Origin: an uncultured Ignavibacteria bacterium
GTDB lineage: Bacteria > Bacteroidota > Ignavibacteria > Kapaibacteriales > UBA2268
Reading direction: 5' to 3'
DNA length: 34,349 bases
Assembly: GCA_903862655.1 (NCBI GenBank)
Contig: CAIOZA010000003.1
Location: 1 to 34,349, forward strand
Shown here: in pieces, positions 23,430 to 34,078 of the stretch
Position numbering within the stretch: the stretch's first letter is position 1
Layout of the letters: every line of letters begins with the position of its first letter
Position numbers and translations under genes: made by a program
Notes under the pieces: generated by a model
What the model saw: the letters and a program-made list of their open reading frames with translations, nothing else
The model's database searches: none
What the model was told of the DNA's origin: nothing

Positions 23430-25390
23430 TCAAGCATGATCGTGTAAATGAGTCTCACTTAACTTAATTGGTAAAATAATAAATTCATGGCCTGAATTGT
23501 ATAGTTTCCATTGGATTGAGAAAACAGTAAAATTATGTAATAATCTGGAAATGAAAGTATCGTTAGGAAAAACAATCTGCCCACCAAAGAAAATTGAATT
23601 AGGATATTTTTCCAGAATTTGAGCAACCATATTCAAAGCCTCTTGTTCAATATCAAGACCTGTGGCTGTAAATGCATCAGCATAATTTCCAAGATAATTT
23701 GTTAAATCAATGTATTTAACAACATCAAGATGAACTTTTTCTTTTAATCGATCAATTTCTTCTATACCTTTAAAATTTCCTGCATCAATTAAACCGACCT
23801 GAACAAAAACTATGTTTTTGAATGAATCTCCAAATAGTCTGAAGATACTCAACAATGAATATATTCCAATTCCTGAGTAACTATTTACAAATAGAACAGC
23901 AGTCCTATCCTTATTGTCCGGTTTAGGAATAGGTTCGTTTTTTGATTTATTTTGAGAAACAAAATCTCTATCAAGAAAAATTTTGTCTAAATTCCTTATA
24001 AGTTCACCTGCCTTTTTATATTCCTTTTTAAAATTCAAGAACATCAAGCATAAAGATCCTGTCAATATGATGGTTATCCAACCACCTTCAAAGAATTTTA
24101 CAAACACAACTGATACTAGAATCAGAAAACAAATTATTAATCCAACACCATTAATTATTAATTTCTTTTTCCATTTTTTATCTTCTCCTCTTACTTTTAA
24201 CCAGTGAATGACCATTCCAAATTGTGACAAGCAAAAAGTAATCAAAACATTAATGCTATAAAAGACAACAAGTAAAGTTACTGACCCATTAGTCAGAAAC
24301 ATTAATGCAAAAGAGGCGATACCCATCAATAAAATTCCTTTTTGAGTAACCAATCTATCACTTAAAGCAGAAAAACGTGTTGGAGCCCATCTGTCCAAAG
24401 CCATATTTGCAAGAACTCTGGGACCATCCAAAAAACCGGTTTGAGCAGCTACGAATAAAATTGCTGTTTCAGAAATTAAAGTAACAATCATAAAAATATA
24501 TCCAACATTGCTATTCCAACCACTTGTCATTTTTATCAAATAAAACATCGGTTATCGTTTTTCCATCAACTGGCACAACATTGTATAGATGGAAGGCTAA
24601 GAACAATACGAAAACAGTTATTGACAGTGATATTGCCATATACCTCATTGTAATTTTAGCTGTATGTACTTTAGGATCCTTTAAAACTGGCAAACCATTA
24701 CTAACCGCTTCAATGCCAGTATAAATTCCGGCACCCATACTAAAAGCATGCAAAATCAAATAAAGTGCTCCAAACTTTCCGAGGGATGTGAAAGTTTTAC
24801 TAAGTTCTAAAGTAGCTGTATGGGCGTCTTGAGGTAATTCAAACATATGATTAAAAATTGCATAAAGTATTACAAAAATGTGTGTAAATACAAAATCCAG
24901 AAAAATAGGGACTAATGAAACAACTGATTCTTTTACTCCACGCATGTTTAATATTGTCAAGCCACACAGAATAAACAATCCAAAGTAAACTTTATAGGGT
25001 AAATACGCTGGTGGTAGAAATGAGAATAATGCGTCCGCTCCACTTGCTATTGATACTGTAATTGTTAAAACATAATCAATCATTAATGCTGTTCCAGAGA
25101 CCATTCCAAAAAATGGGGATAAAAGCTTACTTGCAACTAAATATCCACCACCGCCATTAGGAAATAATTCAATAATTTGCTGATAACTTGAACTTACCAC
25201 AAAAATAGTAATCACTGACATCAAACAGATGAAAATACCTAGATGAGCATTCCCCTTTAAAGCCATAATTAACTCTGAAGGGCCATAGCACGATGAAGAC
25301 AAGCCATCAGAGCTAATTTATGGAATATTTTAGGATCAAGAGGATCTTTGCCCTTTCCAATTACACTTCTTTTAATAATTTGGAAATTAA
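23430..25390 (-). pseudogene. APC-superfamily amino acid permease, broken by a deletion, a frameshift and loss of the start
   Basis: Polytopic permease whose coding frame is split into at least three pieces. (a) From about 25376, KRSVIGKGKDPLDPKIFHKLALM is readable but no ATG, GTG or TTG precedes it in frame after the upstream TAA. (b) At about 25305-25311 the frame jumps to DGLSSSCYGPSEL; relatives as I remember them have roughly a dozen more residues between the two parts (xFxAWVGLGADGL), so about 34 bp seem deleted. (c) At 24530-24534, in a run of five A on the minus strand, one extra base ends the frame (DKNDKWLE, stop) while the matching DKMTSGWNSNVGY continues in another frame to 23430. 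Typical motifs ELFPNGGGGYLVASKLL and TGFLDGPRVLANMALDRW remain well conserved, so the decay looks recent. Confidence 0.85.
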
Positions 25391-25635: not shown

Positions 25636-26202
25636 ATGGGTGGAACCACATCAGATTTAAGATCTGGAGCAGTTATTAATTATAACGGTGAGCTATGTGT
25701 AGTATTGGAATCTGAACATAGAACTCCAGGAAATCTGAGAGCCTTCTTCCAGGTTAAATTAAGAGTCATGAGAACCGGGAAGCTACTCGAAAACAGATTC
25801 CGTTCAGGAGAATCAATTGATTTTGTTCGAGTAGAAAGAAAAAATTATCAATTTCTTTATAGGGATGGTAATACTCTATTTTTTATGGACATGGACAATT
25901 ACGAACAAATTCCTGTTGACAGTGATCTGTTAGGGATTTCTGTAAACTTTCTTAAAGAAAATCAAGATTGTCTTTTGGCATTCGTTAATTCAACTGTTAT
26001 TGCAGCTGAATTACCGCCACATGTGAACTTAAGAATTGCACATACTGAACCAGGTCTTAAGGGTGACACAGCAACAAATGTGCTTAAGCAGGCAGTCGTT
26101 GAAACAGGCGCATCAATTCAAGTACCAATTTTCGTGAATGAAGGTGATATGGTAAGAGTTGATTCGAGAACTGGTGATTACGTAGAACGAGTTAAAGAAT
26201 AA
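25636..26202 (+). CDS. efp: Translation elongation factor P with Asn at the tip position
   Basis: Binds between ribosomal P and E sites and relieves stalling at polyproline. The 188-residue protein has the three beta-barrel domains of EF-P: KOW-like N-terminal domain (RSGAVINYNGELCVVLESEH), middle OB domain (VDFVRV region at 60-125) and C-terminal OB domain with the family signature HTEPGLKGDTATNVLKQAVVETG (reading around 136-160). The loop that reaches the CCA end reads TPGNLRAF, with Asn33 where lysine (beta-lysylated or 5-aminopentanolylated) or arginine (rhamnosylated) normally stands. It is probably co-transcribed with tRNA-Cys and ends at a strong terminator. Confidence 0.96.
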   Translation: MGGTTSDLRSGAVINYNGELCVVLESEHRTPGNLRAFFQVKLRVMRTGKLLENRFRSGESIDFVRVERKNYQFLYRDGNTLFFMDMDNYEQIPVDSDLLGISVNFLKENQDCLLAFVNSTVIAAELPPHVNLRIAHTEPGLKGDTATNVLKQAVVETGASIQVPIFVNEGDMVRVDSRTGDYVERVKE

Positions 26203-26258: not shown

Positions 26259-26305
26259 TTATTAACTTGATTTTTTCCTTTCTCAAATAATTAATGGAGG
26301 TCAGA

Positions 26306-26806
26306 ATGGATTTAGTATATTTAAAAAAGTTAATTAAAATATTCGATGATAGTCACGCAACAGCTCTTGAGTTAGATGAGAAAGGCATTAAAATTCATCT
26401 TTCTAAGACATCTAATATTTCTCACGAACAAACACCGAATAATCAGCCATATTTTGCTCATGCTCATGTTCAACCACCTCAACATCATATTGAGCCACCC
26501 TTGTTCATTCCCCCTGCCTCAGCCGTTGCTAATGCAAAAGAAAATGAAGTTATTTTAGCTGATGATATGCATACAGTACTTTCTCCAATCGTTGGAACTT
26601 TTTACAAAGCTCCTTCTCCTGAATCTCCATCTTTTGTTGAGATTGGATCCAGAGTAACAAAGGGACAAACACTTTGTATAATTGAAGCTATGAAGCTTAT
26701 GAATGAAATCGAAAGTGATGCTGATGGTATCATCGAAAAGATTTTAGTACAAAATGCTCAGCCAGTCGAGTACAATCAACCTCTTTTCATTATTAAACCA
26801 GCTTAA
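26306..26806 (+). CDS. accB: Biotin carboxyl carrier protein of acetyl-CoA carboxylase
   Basis: Carries carboxybiotin between biotin carboxylase and carboxyltransferase in fatty acid synthesis. The 166-residue protein has an N-terminal region [20 protein letters not shown], a His/Pro/Ala-rich linker at about 36-75, and a C-terminal biotinyl domain with [21 protein letters not shown] and the biotin site EAMKLMNEI (Lys130). The ATG at 26306 is chosen because GGAGG at 26296-26300 is an ideal ribosome binding site 5 nt before it; an ATG at 26294 overlaps that site. accC starts 6 nt after the stop. Confidence 0.97.
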
Positions 26807-26812
26807 TAATTT

Positions 26813-28156
26813 ATGATAAAGAAATTACTAATAGCCAATAGAAGCGAGATTGCACTCAGAATCATAAGAGCTTGCAAAGAACTGGATATATTAACCGTTG
26901 CAGTATATTCAGAAGCTGACAAAAATGCTTTACATGTCAGATTTGCTGATGAGGCAATTTGCATTGGACCTCCACCAAGTTCAAAGAGCTATCTGCATAT
27001 CCCTTCAATTATTTCAGCAGCCATGATTACAAATGCCGATGCAATTCATCCTGGATATGGATTTTTAGCTGAGAATAGTGAATTCGTAGATATATGTAAT
27101 GCCGTAGGAATTACTTTCGTTGGACCAAGTGCTGATTCCATTTCCAGAATGGGGAATAAATCAGTTGCGAAGGAAACAATGAGATTAGCTGGAGTTCCTG
27201 TTGTACCAGGCAGTATTGGTATCGTTCCTACAATTGAAGAAGCTATCAAAGTAGCTAATGAAACCGGATACCCAATAATGCTAAAAGCAGTTGCTGGAGG
27301 TGGCGGTAAGGGAATGAGACTTGTAAATGATGAAAATGAACTTAAGAGATTTTATCCTATAACTCGCTCCGAAGCAGAATCTTTCTTTGGAAATCCTGAT
27401 TTATATATTGAAAAGCTCGTTCAGGCATCACGTCATATTGAAATTCAGATATTTGGGGATAAATTTGGCAATGTCATCCATCTTAATGAACGTGAATGTT
27501 CTACTCAAAGAAGACATCAGAAATTAATTGAAGAAGCTCCCTCCCCTATTGTAACCGAAGAATTAAGAAAGAAAATGGGTGATGCAGCTGTTGCTGGTGC
27601 TAAATCAGTTAACTATTATGGTCCTGGTACTATTGAATTCCTAGTTGACAATGATCTGAATTTCTTTTTTATGGAGATGAATACTCGTATTCAGGTTGAA
27701 CATCCTGTAACAGAAGAATCTTTATCTGTTGACTTAATCAAAGAACAGATTAGGGTTGCATCCGGAGAAAAATTAACTCTTAAAAATAAAAAGCCCTTAT
27801 TTCATGCAATCGAATGCAGAATTAATGCGGAAGATCCCTATAACGACTTCAGACCTTCCCCTGGAACGATTACATCATTACATTTTCCAGGTGGACACGG
27901 TGTAAGAGTAGATTCTCATATTTATCAGGGATATACTATTCCACCCTACTATGATTCACTAATAGCCAAATTGATAACTTTTGCACCAACTCGCGATGAG
28001 GCTATTAAAAAGATGAAAAGAGCTCTAGAAGAATTTATTATTGAAGGCGTAAAAACTACTATACCTTTCCACACTAAGATGATGGATAATCCTGATTTCA
28101 AGGCTGGGAACATTGACACAAAATATCTTGAACGTGTCGATTGGAAAAATTTGTAA
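26813..28156 (+). CDS. accC: Biotin carboxylase subunit of acetyl-CoA carboxylase
   Basis: ATP-dependent carboxylation of the biotin on AccB. The 447-residue protein has the pre-ATP-grasp domain ([14 protein letters not shown] near 80), the glycine-rich ATP loop [12 protein letters not shown] near 160, the [18 protein letters not shown] segment, and the catalytic [14 protein letters not shown] near 285-298, followed by the C-terminal domain ECRINAEDP. The N-terminal motif reads [10 protein letters not shown], where relatives nearly always have Gly instead of Ser. It follows accB by 6 nt. accA and accD are not here, as is usual. Confidence 0.97.
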
Positions 28157-28312: not shown

Positions 28313-31300
28313 ATGAAATTTTTCAAATTCTTTATTATTTTTAGTTTATCCTCATTGTCATTTCTTTTAGCAAATGATTTTTCTATTACTCCTGTAGAAG
28401 AAGGATTATTAGTTAAAATAAACAATCTTGAACTAACAAAAGTATCAGACAATGGGAAATATCGGATCAAGATTAATAATCTTGACGTAACCATTACTAA
28501 TCCTAATTCGAAGTATTTTAACGATGAAATACAAATACAATTTATAGCTCCTTCTGATCAGCAATTATCTTATGTAATTCAAAAATTAAATAAGCTGAAC
28601 TATGGTTTGGTTCAGTTAATTTCAAAACCATTAAATATTCAGAAGAATTTTCAAGAGTTAAAATCAGAAATTTCTCTTAAATATCTTGGTTTACAACGCT
28701 TCGCAAATGTCCATTCTTTAAGAATTCAGCCATTTGATTATGACGAGAGCACTACATTACTGACATATATCAGGAATATAGAACTCCTTATTAAATTTCC
28801 TCAAACATCAAATATAAACTACACCAAAACTGAGTTTAAAGATAATATTAATTATTACCAAAATCTCATCAATATTGATCAAGTTCCAACATTTGCCAAA
28901 ACTGAGAAAATATCTTTTGATTTACCACAAGCTACTAACTGGTATCAGCCCGATTTGAAATATGTAAGATTAGCAACAACAAGAGATGGTATAGCTAGAA
29001 CTAACCTATCAGATGTTCTGTCAATAGTTCCTGATTGGTCGGGAAAGAATTCATCAAATCTTCATTTAATTCATAACGGTGAAGAATATCCACTAATTTT
29101 TATTAATGATAAAAATGGAAAATTAGATAATAATGATATCTTTTATTTTTATGGAAGAAGACCAACTGGCGACACTACCTGGTATGACAATTACGCATCC
29201 GATGAATCCTTTTTCTTGTATTATTCAGAGTCAAGTTCAGGAATAAGATTCCAATCTTTTGAACCAGTAGGTTTTGGTGCAAATGAATTAAGCAATGTTT
29301 TTGTAAGAAAGCATATTGAAAAGGAAAAAATATATTACCGAGGGTTCCCTCAGGAATCATCTGAAACTGCACCTGGGGAAGGTTGGTTTTGGGATATTAT
29401 AAGTCCTTCTAAGGATTGGCCACATTTTTTAAAAGATTCACTGATCATGCTTCCTGAAGGAAACGCAAATGGAATAAACTTTTATTTTCATTTTGCCAGT
29501 TGTCGTTGGAATGTTAATTTTGATACCGTCCATCTATTAAATGGAAGTTTTAACAAGTTAAATTTTGGAGATGGAAAATTTTCATGGGGAAATAGAGATT
29601 CATTAGGTGGCACAATTCCTGAAAATGAACTTTTCTTTGGAATTAATCAATTTCAGATTAATACAATTGGTCAATATATTAACTCAGTCTTAATGGATCC
29701 TGATCATGTTGGTATAGACTATTATTCTGTTGAAGGTAATTTTAAACCTTTTGCTCAAAACGGGCTTTTTGATTTTTCTACAAAATATTCATCGTCAGAT
29801 AAAACAGTCAACATACCTGGGTTCAGTTCAGGAAATGTCTGGGCGATTGATACTCTGAATAATTTTATCTCGCAATTACCATCAACAAAAAGTGATTATG
29901 CAATTGCTTCAACATCATTTACTTCAAAATACACATCAATTGTTTTAAACGCAGATAAACCTTACCATTCTGACCAAAGGGGAATTCATATAGTTTATTG
30001 GGACAATGCGACATCAGACATTAAAACAAATTTCTATCCTTCAAACAGTACCGAAGTACAGAAGTTGATTTCAGGTTTACCAGACAGCACAAGAATATAT
30101 GTAGCGATAAATGCTGATACACAAATCGACAATTCATTGAAAACATTTCTGAAAACTGCAGGATCGACTGAGATTGAGGGATATCAACCAGGCGACAACT
30201 ATATTGCCAATCTGATAAAGAATGGTAAACTCAAAGATCAATTTTCATCTAATTCAACTGCTGAGCTATTTAATTCTTTCGATTCTGATAACGGAAAATC
30301 ATTTAGAGTTCGCCTTGAGTTAGCATCTGGTAGAGATTATTATGCTTGGATTCAGGAAGAAAGCACATTTGAATCAGCAAAAACATTTGCCGTGAATAAA
30401 ACGAACCTAAGAGACAGAGCAAATCAGTATGACGTTGTCTTGGTTTATAACAAATTATTTGAGTCGTCAATTCCGAGATATATTGAGCAACGAAAGTTGA
30501 CTGACCCCGAAAAAAAGATTATAGCAATTGATCAGGAGGATATTTATAAAGAATTTAACTTTGGAAAGAAATCACCTCATGCAATAAAAAATATGCTAAA
30601 ATATGCATTTGAAAACTGGGAGAGCACCAAACCTTCTTATGTAGTCCTTTGGGGAGATGCTAGCTGGGATAGCAGGAAAATTCAAGTAGATTCAAAATAT
30701 ACTGATTTTATTCCAACTTTTGGTTGGCCTGCATCAGATTACTGGTATGTAATTCTAACAGATGACTTTTTGCCAGACATGTACATTGGCAGAATACCTG
30801 TTAAATCAATTGAGGAGAGTGATGGATATATTGATAAATTAATCTTGAATGATACAATTGAAAATAATCCATGGAATAAGAAATTTGTTATGTTAACAGG
30901 AGGACAGAATACAAACGAGATAGGGATTTTCTATAGTTATGGAAAGTATACTATGGCTGAGGAAATAATTTCACATTCTGATTTTTGTGCCGACACAATG
31001 GTTATTAAAAAAGAGCTGGCAAGCAATACAAGTGAATCCCAAGGCGGTCAAATAATTAAAGCAATTAATAATGGATTGTATTGGTCATATTATATCGGGC
31101 ATGGTTCAACAAGAATTTTAGATCTTGATGGCTGGCAGGTTGAGAAATTGAATAACAAAGGAAAGTATGGATATTTATCAACTCTTTCCTGTAATACTGC
31201 TGCATTTGCTGAGCCAAATTTAATTGCAAGAAATGAAGAGTATGTTGTCACTCCCGAAAAAGGATTTATAGGAACCGGTGGCTCTTCAGGAGTATCATAC

Positions 31301-34078
31301 CTTGACAACACTCTTAGTATGGGGCTTTTAATGTTAAGGAGCATGTTGTCTGGACTAAATATTAATACTTATGTTGAAGCTTTATGGAATGCCAAAGAAC
31401 AAATGCATTACAGTATCGAGGATACATTAAATGGATATCATTATACTTATTTGGGCGATCCTTTAGTGAAACTAAAGATTAGACAAAGACCTGATTTTTA
31501 TTTTTTAAGAAACGAGGTTTCGATATCTAACCCACAAGACAACCGATTAATATCAGTTTCTGATTCAACTGTAATTAAAGGTTCTATCTACAATAATGGT
31601 CTAAGAAATAATGAAAACATTAAACTTATACTTATTCATGACTATAAAGGAAATCATGATACTTCGACTAAAGTATTTTTTGGTATTTGCAATCCTGCAC
31701 CTTTCATTTTCAAAGTCAACACAGTCAATCAGCCGGGAATTCATAAATTCACTTTAATAGTAGATCCGGAAAAAGCTTTACAGGATTTGAATTATAATAA
31801 TAATACATTAGTGCTAAATTCTGAAGTATTTAACAATGGAATATATCCACTTGAGCCTCTACCATTCTGGAATATTGATGCTTCAGCACCACAGTTCCGT
31901 GTTATCAATCCTATTTCTTCAAACTCAGATTTTAGTTATAGTTTTAGAATATGGAATGATTGGGATACTTCAAGCTCTGCAATTTTCAGCTCACAAAATT
32001 CTGAGCTAATCAAACAGGAGAATTACATTGATTGGAAACCTATGTTAAAGCTTGTACAAAATAAGAACTATATACTTGGTGTCCAATCAATTCAGTTGAA
32101 CAATTCAGCTGTTTCTCCTTTGAGTATTATCCCGTTTAATACATTCAGCAACAAACTTAATGAAAATGTAGATCTTAGATTATCAGGAGTGGATAATTTT
32201 ATTCATTCAGGACAAATGGATAATCTTGAAATTATATCAAATAACAATGAAGACAATCTTGTTCTAGGCAAAAAAGAACATCCTTTTAGGATTGTCAGTG
32301 TTTATGGAAGTTCTAGAAGTCCATATAGAGTTGGAGAAATTGAATATGATAGCAGCATTTACACTACAACGCCCCCTGATATACTTGGATTCAGATTGGT
32401 TGCTGTTTCTTCAGATTCATTTAAAGTATATTCTGTTAAATACTACGATACTTACAATACAGAAGACGGTCAAGGCAATCCCAACAGACAGAGTAGAGAA
32501 ATAAATCTATTCTTAAGAGATACAGTTAAAGATGGTGATTATGTATTATTGGCAACAAATGGAGAATCCTTCAGGCTATTCCATCATTACGACGTTGTTG
32601 AACCCGGTACAATAAATTCATTAAAAGCTCTTAGATCTATATTAAAAGATAATTACGGTGCATCTGCAATAGATACCATGGAAATGGATAAAGGTTCTTA
32701 TTCATTCTGTGGCAGAAAGAATAGGAATCCGGAAAAAACAGTTGAGTCGTTTAGCGGTTCTTTTGATACAGCAGCCATTCAATCAACAATTGTTGAGAAT
32801 TATAAAAAAGGTAGTTATGTTACAAATGAATTCGGACCAGCAAAATCATGGAAATCACTTCAAATATCTGCTAACCCTGATTCAATATCATTATCTACAG
32901 CAATTTTGGCATTAAATAAGAAGACAAAACTCGGGGATATTCTGAAAGTAATCAGGCAAAAAGAACTTTCTATAAGCGTTGATTTATCTGATATAGATGC
33001 AGGAATATATCCTTATATTCTTCTGGTAACTGATTTCAGAAGAGACGATGAATCAAAAAATCCATCGATCAGTTCTTATAATGTTAGTTTTGATCCTACA
33101 CCTGAATTAGCCATTCATAAATCTGAATCATCCTTTTTAATTGATTCTTTGCTAAGAGGTGATGTAATGGAGTACAAATTGAATGTTCAGAATATCAGTA
33201 TTCGAAGCAAATCTGATTCAGCGGATGTGAAAGTCAGGATAACATCAGACTCAAAATCAATTGAAGAAATTTCATTAAAATTACCGAATATCCCTGCTGA
33301 TTCTTCTGCCAATACTACAATTACAAGCTTAACTGAGGTGTTTGATAATAAAGACTATATGTCGGTCAATCTTGATGAACAGAATCTCATAAATGAACTT
33401 TATAATTTTAATAATTTTTTGAAAGATGAATTGTTCATTAATGAGGATACTCAAAAACCAAGCATTGAGTTTAAACTTGACGGAAAATTGATTGCTAATG
33501 GTGACTACGTGAGCAGAGTCCCATATATTGAAGTAACCTTGTATGATAATTCTAAGTTACCGATTACAACTGCCAGAACAATTGGCATTGGTATCAATAG
33601 ACCTTTTCCAAGCAATTATGATACTTTGTTTACTTCCTACAATAGAGAAATTCCAGCTAAGGCTAAATTGGAATTCTGGTCGGATACACTTGATTATGGT
33701 GAAAATTATTTTCGAGTTATTGTATCTGATGCATCTGGCAACCGAGACACAAATTTATATTATGTCAAAGTATCTTTAAATGGATTTATTGACAATCTAA
33801 CATCTCATCCAAATCCATTTATTGAAAAAACCAATATCTCACTATCTCTGAGAGCCCCAGAGAATGCAGGTACTCTTTCTTTAAAGCTTTTTAATTCTAT
33901 TGGTCAAACCGTAAGACAATATTCTATTCCGGCAACAGTAGGATTTAATTCATTTGAATGGGATGGAAGAGATGAGTCAGGAAATACACTTCAATCAGGA
34001 GTTTATGTTTATGTTGTTACATATGCATCTGATACTTATGCAGAACCTCAACATGGTAAATGTATATTAATTAAATAA
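28313..34078 (+). CDS. Very large gingipain-like C25 cysteine peptidase with T9SS sorting domain (PorU-related)
   Basis: 1921-residue secreted protein. It has a signal peptide (residues 1-20, ending FLLA-ND), then a propeptide-like region (about 30-180, including FANVHSLRIQPFDYD) of the type in front of C25 peptidases. A beta-rich region with YVRLATTRDGIART precedes the peptidase domain at about 700-1065. Its catalytic pair is His930 in SYYIGHGSTRIL and Cys960 in YLSTLSCNTAAF, the gingipain His/Cys arrangement. CARDB/Ig-like segments follow (about 1066-1180, 1570-1680). The last 94 residues (from NLTSHPNPF) form a T9SS type A sorting domain with FEWDGRDESGNTLQSGVYVY. PorU, the T9SS sortase, is a C25 member too, but is usually about 1100-1300 residues; I cannot separate a sortase from an exported protease by sequence alone. 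Confidence 0.9.
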   Translation: MKFFKFFIIFSLSSLSFLLANDFSITPVEEGLLVKINNLELTKVSDNGKYRIKINNLDVTITNPNSKYFNDEIQIQFIAPSDQQLSYVIQKLNKLNYGLVQLISKPLNIQKNFQELKSEISLKYLGLQRFANVHSLRIQPFDYDESTTLLTYIRNIELLIKFPQTSNINYTKTEFKDNINYYQNLINIDQVPTFAKTEKISFDLPQATNWYQPDLKYVRLATTRDGIARTNLSDVLSIVPDWSGKNSSNLHLIHNGEEYPLIFINDKNGKLDNNDIFYFYGRRPTGDTTWYDNYASDESFFLYYSESSSGIRFQSFEPVGFGANELSNVFVRKHIEKEKIYYRGFPQESSETAPGEGWFWDIISPSKDWPHFLKDSLIMLPEGNANGINFYFHFASCRWNVNFDTVHLLNGSFNKLNFGDGKFSWGNRDSLGGTIPENELFFGINQFQINTIGQYINSVLMDPDHVGIDYYSVEGNFKPFAQNGLFDFSTKYSSSDKTVNIPGFSSGNVWAIDTLNNFISQLPSTKSDYAIASTSFTSKYTSIVLNADKPYHSDQRGIHIVYWDNATSDIKTNFYPSNSTEVQKLISGLPDSTRIYVAINADTQIDNSLKTFLKTAGSTEIEGYQPGDNYIANLIKNGKLKDQFSSNSTAELFNSFDSDNGKSFRVRLELASGRDYYAWIQEESTFESAKTFAVNKTNLRDRANQYDVVLVYNKLFESSIPRYIEQRKLTDPEKKIIAIDQEDIYKEFNFGKKSPHAIKNMLKYAFENWESTKPSYVVLWGDASWDSRKIQVDSKYTDFIPTFGWPASDYWYVILTDDFLPDMYIGRIPVKSIEESDGYIDKLILNDTIENNPWNKKFVMLTGGQNTNEIGIFYSYGKYTMAEEIISHSDFCADTMVIKKELASNTSESQGGQIIKAINNGLYWSYYIGHGSTRILDLDGWQVEKLNNKGKYGYLSTLSCNTAAFAEPNLIARNEEYVVTPEKGFIGTGGSSGVSYLDNTLSMGLLMLRSMLSGLNINTYVEALWNAKEQMHYSIEDTLNGYHYTYLGDPLVKLKIRQRPDFYFLRNEVSISNPQDNRLISVSDSTVIKGSIYNNGLRNNENIKLILIHDYKGNHDTSTKVFFGICNPAPFIFKVNTVNQPGIHKFTLIVDPEKALQDLNYNNNTLVLNSEVFNNGIYPLEPLPFWNIDASAPQFRVINPISSNSDFSYSFRIWNDWDTSSSAIFSSQNSELIKQENYIDWKPMLKLVQNKNYILGVQSIQLNNSAVSPLSIIPFNTFSNKLNENVDLRLSGVDNFIHSGQMDNLEIISNNNEDNLVLGKKEHPFRIVSVYGSSRSPYRVGEIEYDSSIYTTTPPDILGFRLVAVSSDSFKVYSVKYYDTYNTEDGQGNPNRQSREINLFLRDTVKDGDYVLLATNGESFRLFHHYDVVEPGTINSLKALRSILKDNYGASAIDTMEMDKGSYSFCGRKNRNPEKTVESFSGSFDTAAIQSTIVENYKKGSYVTNEFGPAKSWKSLQISANPDSISLSTAILALNKKTKLGDILKVIRQKELSISVDLSDIDAGIYPYILLVTDFRRDDESKNPSISSYNVSFDPTPELAIHKSESSFLIDSLLRGDVMEYKLNVQNISIRSKSDSADVKVRITSDSKSIEEISLKLPNIPADSSANTTITSLTEVFDNKDYMSVNLDEQNLINELYNFNNFLKDELFINEDTQKPSIEFKLDGKLIANGDYVSRVPYIEVTLYDNSKLPITTARTIGIGINRPFPSNYDTLFTSYNREIPAKAKLEFWSDTLDYGENYFRVIVSDASGNRDTNLYYVKVSLNGFIDNLTSHPNPFIEKTNISLSLRAPENAGTLSLKLFNSIGQTVRQYSIPATVGFNSFEWDGRDESGNTLQSGVYVYVVTYASDTYAEPQHGKCILIK

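Follow-up and report, generated by a model that had tools for sequence, protein, structure and literature searches.

Elongation factor P with an asparagine loop tip and coupled neighboring residues in an uncultured Ignavibacteria bacterium

An uncultured Ignavibacteria bacterium encodes a single elongation factor P (EF-P) in which the loop tip, occupied by Lys34 in E. coli, is an asparagine; among aligned EF-Ps, Asn at this site is accompanied by changes at the two residues that follow it (+1 and +2). The gene lies in a 34,349-nucleotide stretch (contig CAIOZA010000003.1 of assembly GCA_903862655.1), the whole of which is referred to here as the window. Our best reading, to which we assign a probability of about 0.57, is that this EF-P works unmodified, with Arg35 rather than the tip carrying the charge, and that it would relieve polyproline stalling in this form. 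EF-P is usually described as requiring a modified Lys or a modified Arg, and here a widespread single-copy form has neither residue at its tip. The joint switch of tip, +1, and +2 points to a second way of building an active loop.

An asparagine-tipped EF-P encoded by a single gene

The efp gene (25636 to 26202, + strand) encodes a 188-aa protein with a KOW domain and two OB domains. Its product scored above the cut-offs of all three Pfam models (EFP_N [PF08207], EFP [PF01132], and Elong-fact-P_C [PF09285]) and of the NCBIfam efp equivalog (TIGR00038; 229.4 bits against a cut-off of 185.8), in agreement with an earlier sequence-only reading, according to which the protein is intact outside its loop. 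An AlphaFold model based on an alignment of 36 proteins from the window and the loci (mean pLDDT, 91) had the three-beta-barrel fold of EF-P, and the closest solved structures detected by Foldseek were EF-Ps (9a6x, TM 0.90; 1ueb, 0.90; 6enj_w, 0.88).

Strands beta3 (residues 19 to 29) and beta4 (residues 37 to 44) of the model flank a loop of residues 30 to 36 (TPGNLRA; 25723 to 25743, +), with Asn33 in the middle. The codons at 25723 to 25746 are ACT CCA GGA AAT CTG AGA GCC TTC (TPGNLRAF), of which AAT (25732 to 25734) encodes Asn33, aligned to E. coli Lys34, and the next two encode Leu34 (+1; 25735 to 25737) and Arg35 (+2; 25738 to 25740). The sequence-only reading had already placed Asn33 at the tip and Arg35 two positions beyond it; both assignments held, and the offset that it had considered (a Lys or Arg at the true tip) is contradicted by both the model and the alignment. 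Its statement that neither the Lys nor the Arg modification chemistry is possible at the tip likewise stands, the residue being Asn. A base error is unlikely, given that the +1 and +2 residues also differ from those of Lys-type loops and that all of the 20 closest loci (L002 to L021; 55 to 75% identical) read TPGNLRAF.

Regarding copy number, the window's genome, an assembly of 148 contigs with 98.35% completeness, yielded one EFP_N match, and the protein fell below the EfpL/YeiP cut-offs (NF003392, 122.9 against 216 bits; TIGR02178, 117.2 against 264 bits). We therefore rejected an EfpL/YeiP identity as well as the possibility, raised by the sequence-only reading, that this gene is a paralogue accompanying a standard EF-P gene; the latter could hold only if an assembly gap conceals that second gene.

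The Asn tip is less odd than that reading had implied. Of 395 genomes drawn evenly across the phylum, 156 carried the motif PGN[L/F]RAF (reversed-motif control, 6 of 395; the search misses the N-W-R form and takes in chance matches), EF-P was present at 24 of the 30 loci listed for the motif (6 were without EF-P), and Asn-tipped EF-Ps have been published. In the accessible part of PMC6544042, Asn tips account for 2.23% of 1166 EF-Ps, always with Pro at -2; the window protein likewise has Asn at the K34 position and Pro at -2. Within the window's family group (f1), 8 of the 9 genomes drawn carried the motif, the exception being G109, in which EF-P is Lys tipped (KPGKGGAF; L162).

EFP_N matched in 127 of 130 searched genomes (77 of 80 plus 50 of 50), which were chosen to span families with and without the motif and whose tip counts are thus not frequencies. 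The EF-P content of the 125 genomes with sequence read (G097 and G240 were left out) was Asn only (55), Asn plus Lys (5), Asn plus another form (4), Lys only (59), or another form only (2), with G122 counted as Asn bearing (Asn copy L090). There was no second EFP_N match in 55 of the 64 Asn-bearing genomes, and the Asn-type loop was retained among proteins down to about 40% identity. Three near-complete genomes (G341, G157, and G197; 98 to 99%) among the 130 had no EFP_N match, EF-P being either lost or missing from the assembly. Two genomes of the window's family group (G389 and G196) have, beside the Asn-tipped copy, a second EF-P (L157 and L158; QTGRGGAY) with an Arg tip and no Pro at -2, and EarP had no match in either genome. 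Asn-tipped and Lys-tipped (TPGKGGAF) EF-Ps occur together in genomes of family f22 (L182 in G080; L097 and L096); in G080, the two efp genes are in tandem, about 680 bases apart.

Coupling of the tip to the two following residues

The alignment consisted of 258 rows, i.e., 257 distinct sequences of 270 EF-P copies plus E. coli EF-P. Tips were Lys (137), Asn (108), Arg (8), or Gln (5). At +1, Gly was present in all 137 Lys-tipped rows and in none of the Asn-tipped rows (Leu, 92; Trp, 14; Lys, 1; Arg, 1). At +2, the Asn-tipped rows had Arg (107) or His (1), so that 108 of 108 were basic, against 1 of 137 Lys-tipped rows (Gly, 68; Ala, 45; Ser, 9; Pro, 9; Asn, 4; Gln, 1; Arg, 1). A further residue typical of Asn-tipped EF-Ps is Arg54 (25795 to 25797, +; E. 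coli Thr55), with Arg in 106 of 108 Asn-tipped and 7 of 137 Lys-tipped rows. We also made two within-group contrasts, one inside a single class (15 Asn and 41 Lys rows) and one inside family f22, in which second copies are Lys tipped (10 Asn and 5 Lys rows). E. coli columns 34, 35, and 36 were the only ones that separated Asn from Lys rows fully in both.

Shared ancestry was weighed against repeated switches on a quick tree of 163 representatives, with the loop (E. coli columns 28 to 40) omitted, in which some rows were long and 44 of 160 inner branches were starred for support. On this loop-less tree, the N/K tip needs 6 changes, and starred branches make 5 of these unavoidable. Over the 5 starred independent K/N pairs, the average number in step with the tip was 5.0 for +1 and 4.7 for +2, and no pair ran in the opposite direction (sign test, p 0.0625, the lowest attainable with 5 pairs). 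When Lys/Arg tips were set against Asn/Gln tips, the tree required 8 changes and offered 6 starred pairs, of which 5.5 were in step (median p, 0.031; range, 0.031 to 0.125). Two other candidate partners of the Asn tip, Arg54 and a missing Lys at -3, were in step in only 2.4 and 2.2 of the 5 independent pairs, respectively; we rejected both, and their distribution may reflect ancestry. The Lys-tipped copies of family f22 sit inside the Asn clade and retain Arg55 (E. coli numbering), on which basis their loop appears to have reverted from N-L-R to K-G-G, a direction that we infer.

Some loops depart from this pattern. Two Gln-tipped second copies (L205 and L263; GSGQMQGF) have no basic neighbor, which counts against a general rule. 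Arg stands at +1 in four rows from Spirochaetota, three with Gln tips and one with an Asn tip without Pro at -2. The loops at these loci (L292, L296, L297, and L295) include KVGQRQAI and RAQQRKAN for the Gln tips and KTANRRAM for the Asn tip; the last differs from the Asn tips of PMC6544042, reported in its accessible text only with Pro at -2. Within the Asn clade, L194 (G365) reads FMGRGSGF, and L167 (G128) reads TPGKGRAS, the sole Lys tip with a basic +2 residue.

As far as we have seen, the Asn tip itself was already known, and the joint change of tip, +1, and +2 is new. The searched literature, to the extent that its texts were accessible, held no account of a coupling of +1 or +2 to the Asn tip, and a query with the loop letters returned no EF-P title among the matches listed. 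The accessible part of PMC6544042 tests K34N alone and does not mention +1/+2 partners, whereas coupled partners are noted here.

Known modifiers and rival explanations

Lys-type EF-Ps (beta-lysylated by EpmA in E. coli; 5-aminopentanolylated in B. subtilis) share with the window protein the fold, the domains, the Pro-Gly before the tip, and the place before accB/accC, but the window protein has neither the tip Lys nor the +1 Gly. Arg-type EF-Ps, rhamnosylated by EarP, also have an Arg in the loop, whereas the Arg of the window protein is at +2, after an Asn tip and with Pro31 at -2. YmfI, the target of which is Lys, belongs to a large dehydrogenase family. An actinobacterial EF-P subfamily has a Lys tip followed by Pro, in contrast to the Asn-Leu-Arg of the window loop. 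According to the accessible part of PMC11611912, which cites Pinheiro and colleagues (2020), this subfamily is unmodified and has a stiffer loop, a change that is said to replace modification. The same source describes EfpL/YeiP as functional with an unmodified loop, as proposed here for the window EF-P, although the EfpL loop is longer and has an Arg tip. It further lists Asn, Gln, Met, Ser, and Gly tips, describes EF-Ps that work unmodified, and states that a stiffer or longer loop can substitute for modification; B. subtilis EF-P stays active without modification (PMC5885033, in the text available).

Among the searches that the sequence-only reading had proposed, we ran those for epmA, earP, and a second efp; the window's genome has no second efp, as described above. 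EpmA was above its cut-off in 0 of 80 genomes, each of which had a match below it, and in 2 of 14 controls. The best match in the window's own genome (245.9 bits against 286.9) lies in a 512-codon open frame that is probably LysRS-like. EarP was found in 0 of the 80 genomes and in 0 of 3 in a further search, while the same search worked in Spirochaetota (6 of 120 matched; E values down to 2e-73). We thus rejected EpmA as the modifier of the window EF-P and EarP acting on Arg35.

A deoxyhypusine synthase (DHS)-like enzyme could also be thought to modify Asn-type EF-P. The accessible part of PMC6544042 notes DHS-like proteins alongside Lys or Asn tips, and the family (PF01916), matched in 66 of 80 and 47 of 50 of our genomes, was present in 48 of 49 Asn-bearing against 14 of 26 Lys-only genomes (p 4e-6, kinship ignored). 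With 50 more genomes, the counts were 63 of 64 and 44 of 59; within families f9, f14, and f37, presence was independent of tip type, and 2 starred independent pairs, which have no power, showed no trend. The association tracks kinship. Furthermore, the DHS-family protein of the window's genome (locus L302, 5531 to 6559) is a 1,9-bis(guanidino)-5-aza-nonane synthase by NCBIfam (576 bits against a cut-off of 500), below the deoxyhypusine synthase cut-offs. All 10 strong matches tested, two of them from Lys-tip genomes and one from a genome without an EF-P match, pass the same model (573 to 603 bits) and fail every DHS cut-off shown; this typing covers the strong class, and a weaker class scores 129 to 147 bits. 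On the basis of the polyamine assignment and the kinship pattern, we rejected DHS as the EF-P modifier; such a role is very improbable, and the case for DHS-like proteins acting on EF-P in these bacteria is weakened. The protein at L302 retains a WGK motif, which we take to carry the active-site Lys.

In the reading that we prefer, Asn-Leu-Arg would have taken the place of the tip Lys-Gly-X in a single cassette exchange; Pro-Gly-Asn may form a turn, the bulky +1 residue may orient the strand, and Arg35 could stand in for the (modified) Lys at the tRNA end. The sequence-only reading had left three options side by side, i.e., no modification, use of Arg35, or undescribed chemistry; the pattern favors the use of Arg35, since Arg at +2 accompanies the Asn tip in 107 of 108 rows and His in the other. 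Confidence in an unmodified state is only moderate because a hidden modification of Arg35 would give the same pattern. Evidence against it also comes from E. coli, in which EF-P K34N alone is inactive and activity is strongly cut by Q36S or G35N (accessible part of PMC6544042); the Asn-Leu-Arg swap is absent from the variants given there. The contrast between a dead K34N in E. coli and a natural Asn elsewhere can now be framed as a testable three-residue swap.

A less likely alternative is that EF-P is activated by new chemistry, with Arg35 or Asn33 in the loop modified by an enzyme not yet described. Most characterized EF-Ps need modification, and K34N is inactive in E. coli (PMC6544042, accessible text); an enzyme could recognize the N-x-R cassette, which is nearly invariant, and a modified Arg35 would yield the same coupling. 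However, the known arginine modifier of EF-P, EarP, had no match in any of the 80 genomes by a search with a working positive control, the nearest candidate (the strong DHS-family match) is a polyamine synthase in every case tested, the cassette varies at +1 (Leu, Trp, or Lys) and once has His at +2, and there is no linked enzyme, efp preceding accB/accC in both types. It is unlikely that Asn-tipped EF-Ps, the sole EF-P in much of the phylum, carry such a modification on Arg35 or Asn33 with the enzyme gained several times along with N-x-R. We consider decidedly unlikely a weak or altered factor that binds the ribosome but relieves stalling poorly, with ABC-F proteins or slow growth compensating: the loss of activity in K34N and the 5 genomes with a Lys-tipped copy beside the Asn-tipped one, as if the Asn form were insufficient, would fit, but the Asn type is the only EF-P in most Asn-bearing genomes, its loop persists in distant homologs, and Pro-Pro-Pro is not rarer near Asn-type genes (counted in loci around efp). 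An artefact, whether from a wrong base, a misplaced alignment, or a paralogue that coexists with a standard EF-P, is scarcely credible; a second gene could be missed in a draft of 148 contigs, but the nearest loci share the loop, EFP_N has one match, the EfpL/YeiP cut-offs are missed, and the loop position fits the model.

Gene neighborhood and polyproline content

Downstream of efp, on the same strand, lie genes for an accB-like biotin carrier protein (26294 to 26806, +; PF00364) and an accC-like biotin carboxylase (26813 to 28156, +; PF02785/PF02786/PF00289), the latter with a Pro-Pro-Pro motif (GPPPS) at residue 53. The order efp-accB on one strand was seen at 74 of the 113 Asn-type loci and at 66 of the 115 loci of the Lys type, with many loci ending short; its occurrence in both types fits an in-place change of one orthologue. 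No modifier gene was found by Pfam among the genes downstream of efp.

The Pro-Pro-Pro of ValS is a classic EF-P client, and the ValS of the window's genome (1032.9 bits) retains it (MPPPNVTG). Around efp, Pro-Pro-Pro occurred at 0.228 per 1,000 aa in 111 Asn-type loci and 0.243 in 74 Lys-type loci, with efp neighborhoods alone counted; subsets differed (Kapabacteria-like Asn loci, 0.143; Melioribacter-like Lys loci, 0.032). Given the retained ValS motif and the similar rates near the two types, we rejected a loss of polyproline demand.

Two other features of the window were observed. An amino-acid permease on the - strand (23430 to 25302) is split into overlapping frames (23430 to 24548 and 24511 to 25302), both matching AA_permease_2, as a result of either a frameshift or an assembly error. 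On the + strand, 28313 to 34078 encodes a protein of 1921 aa that combines a C25 peptidase domain with a tail for type IX secretion, and for which the closest NCBIfam names, below cut-off, are the PorU and PorU2 sortases.
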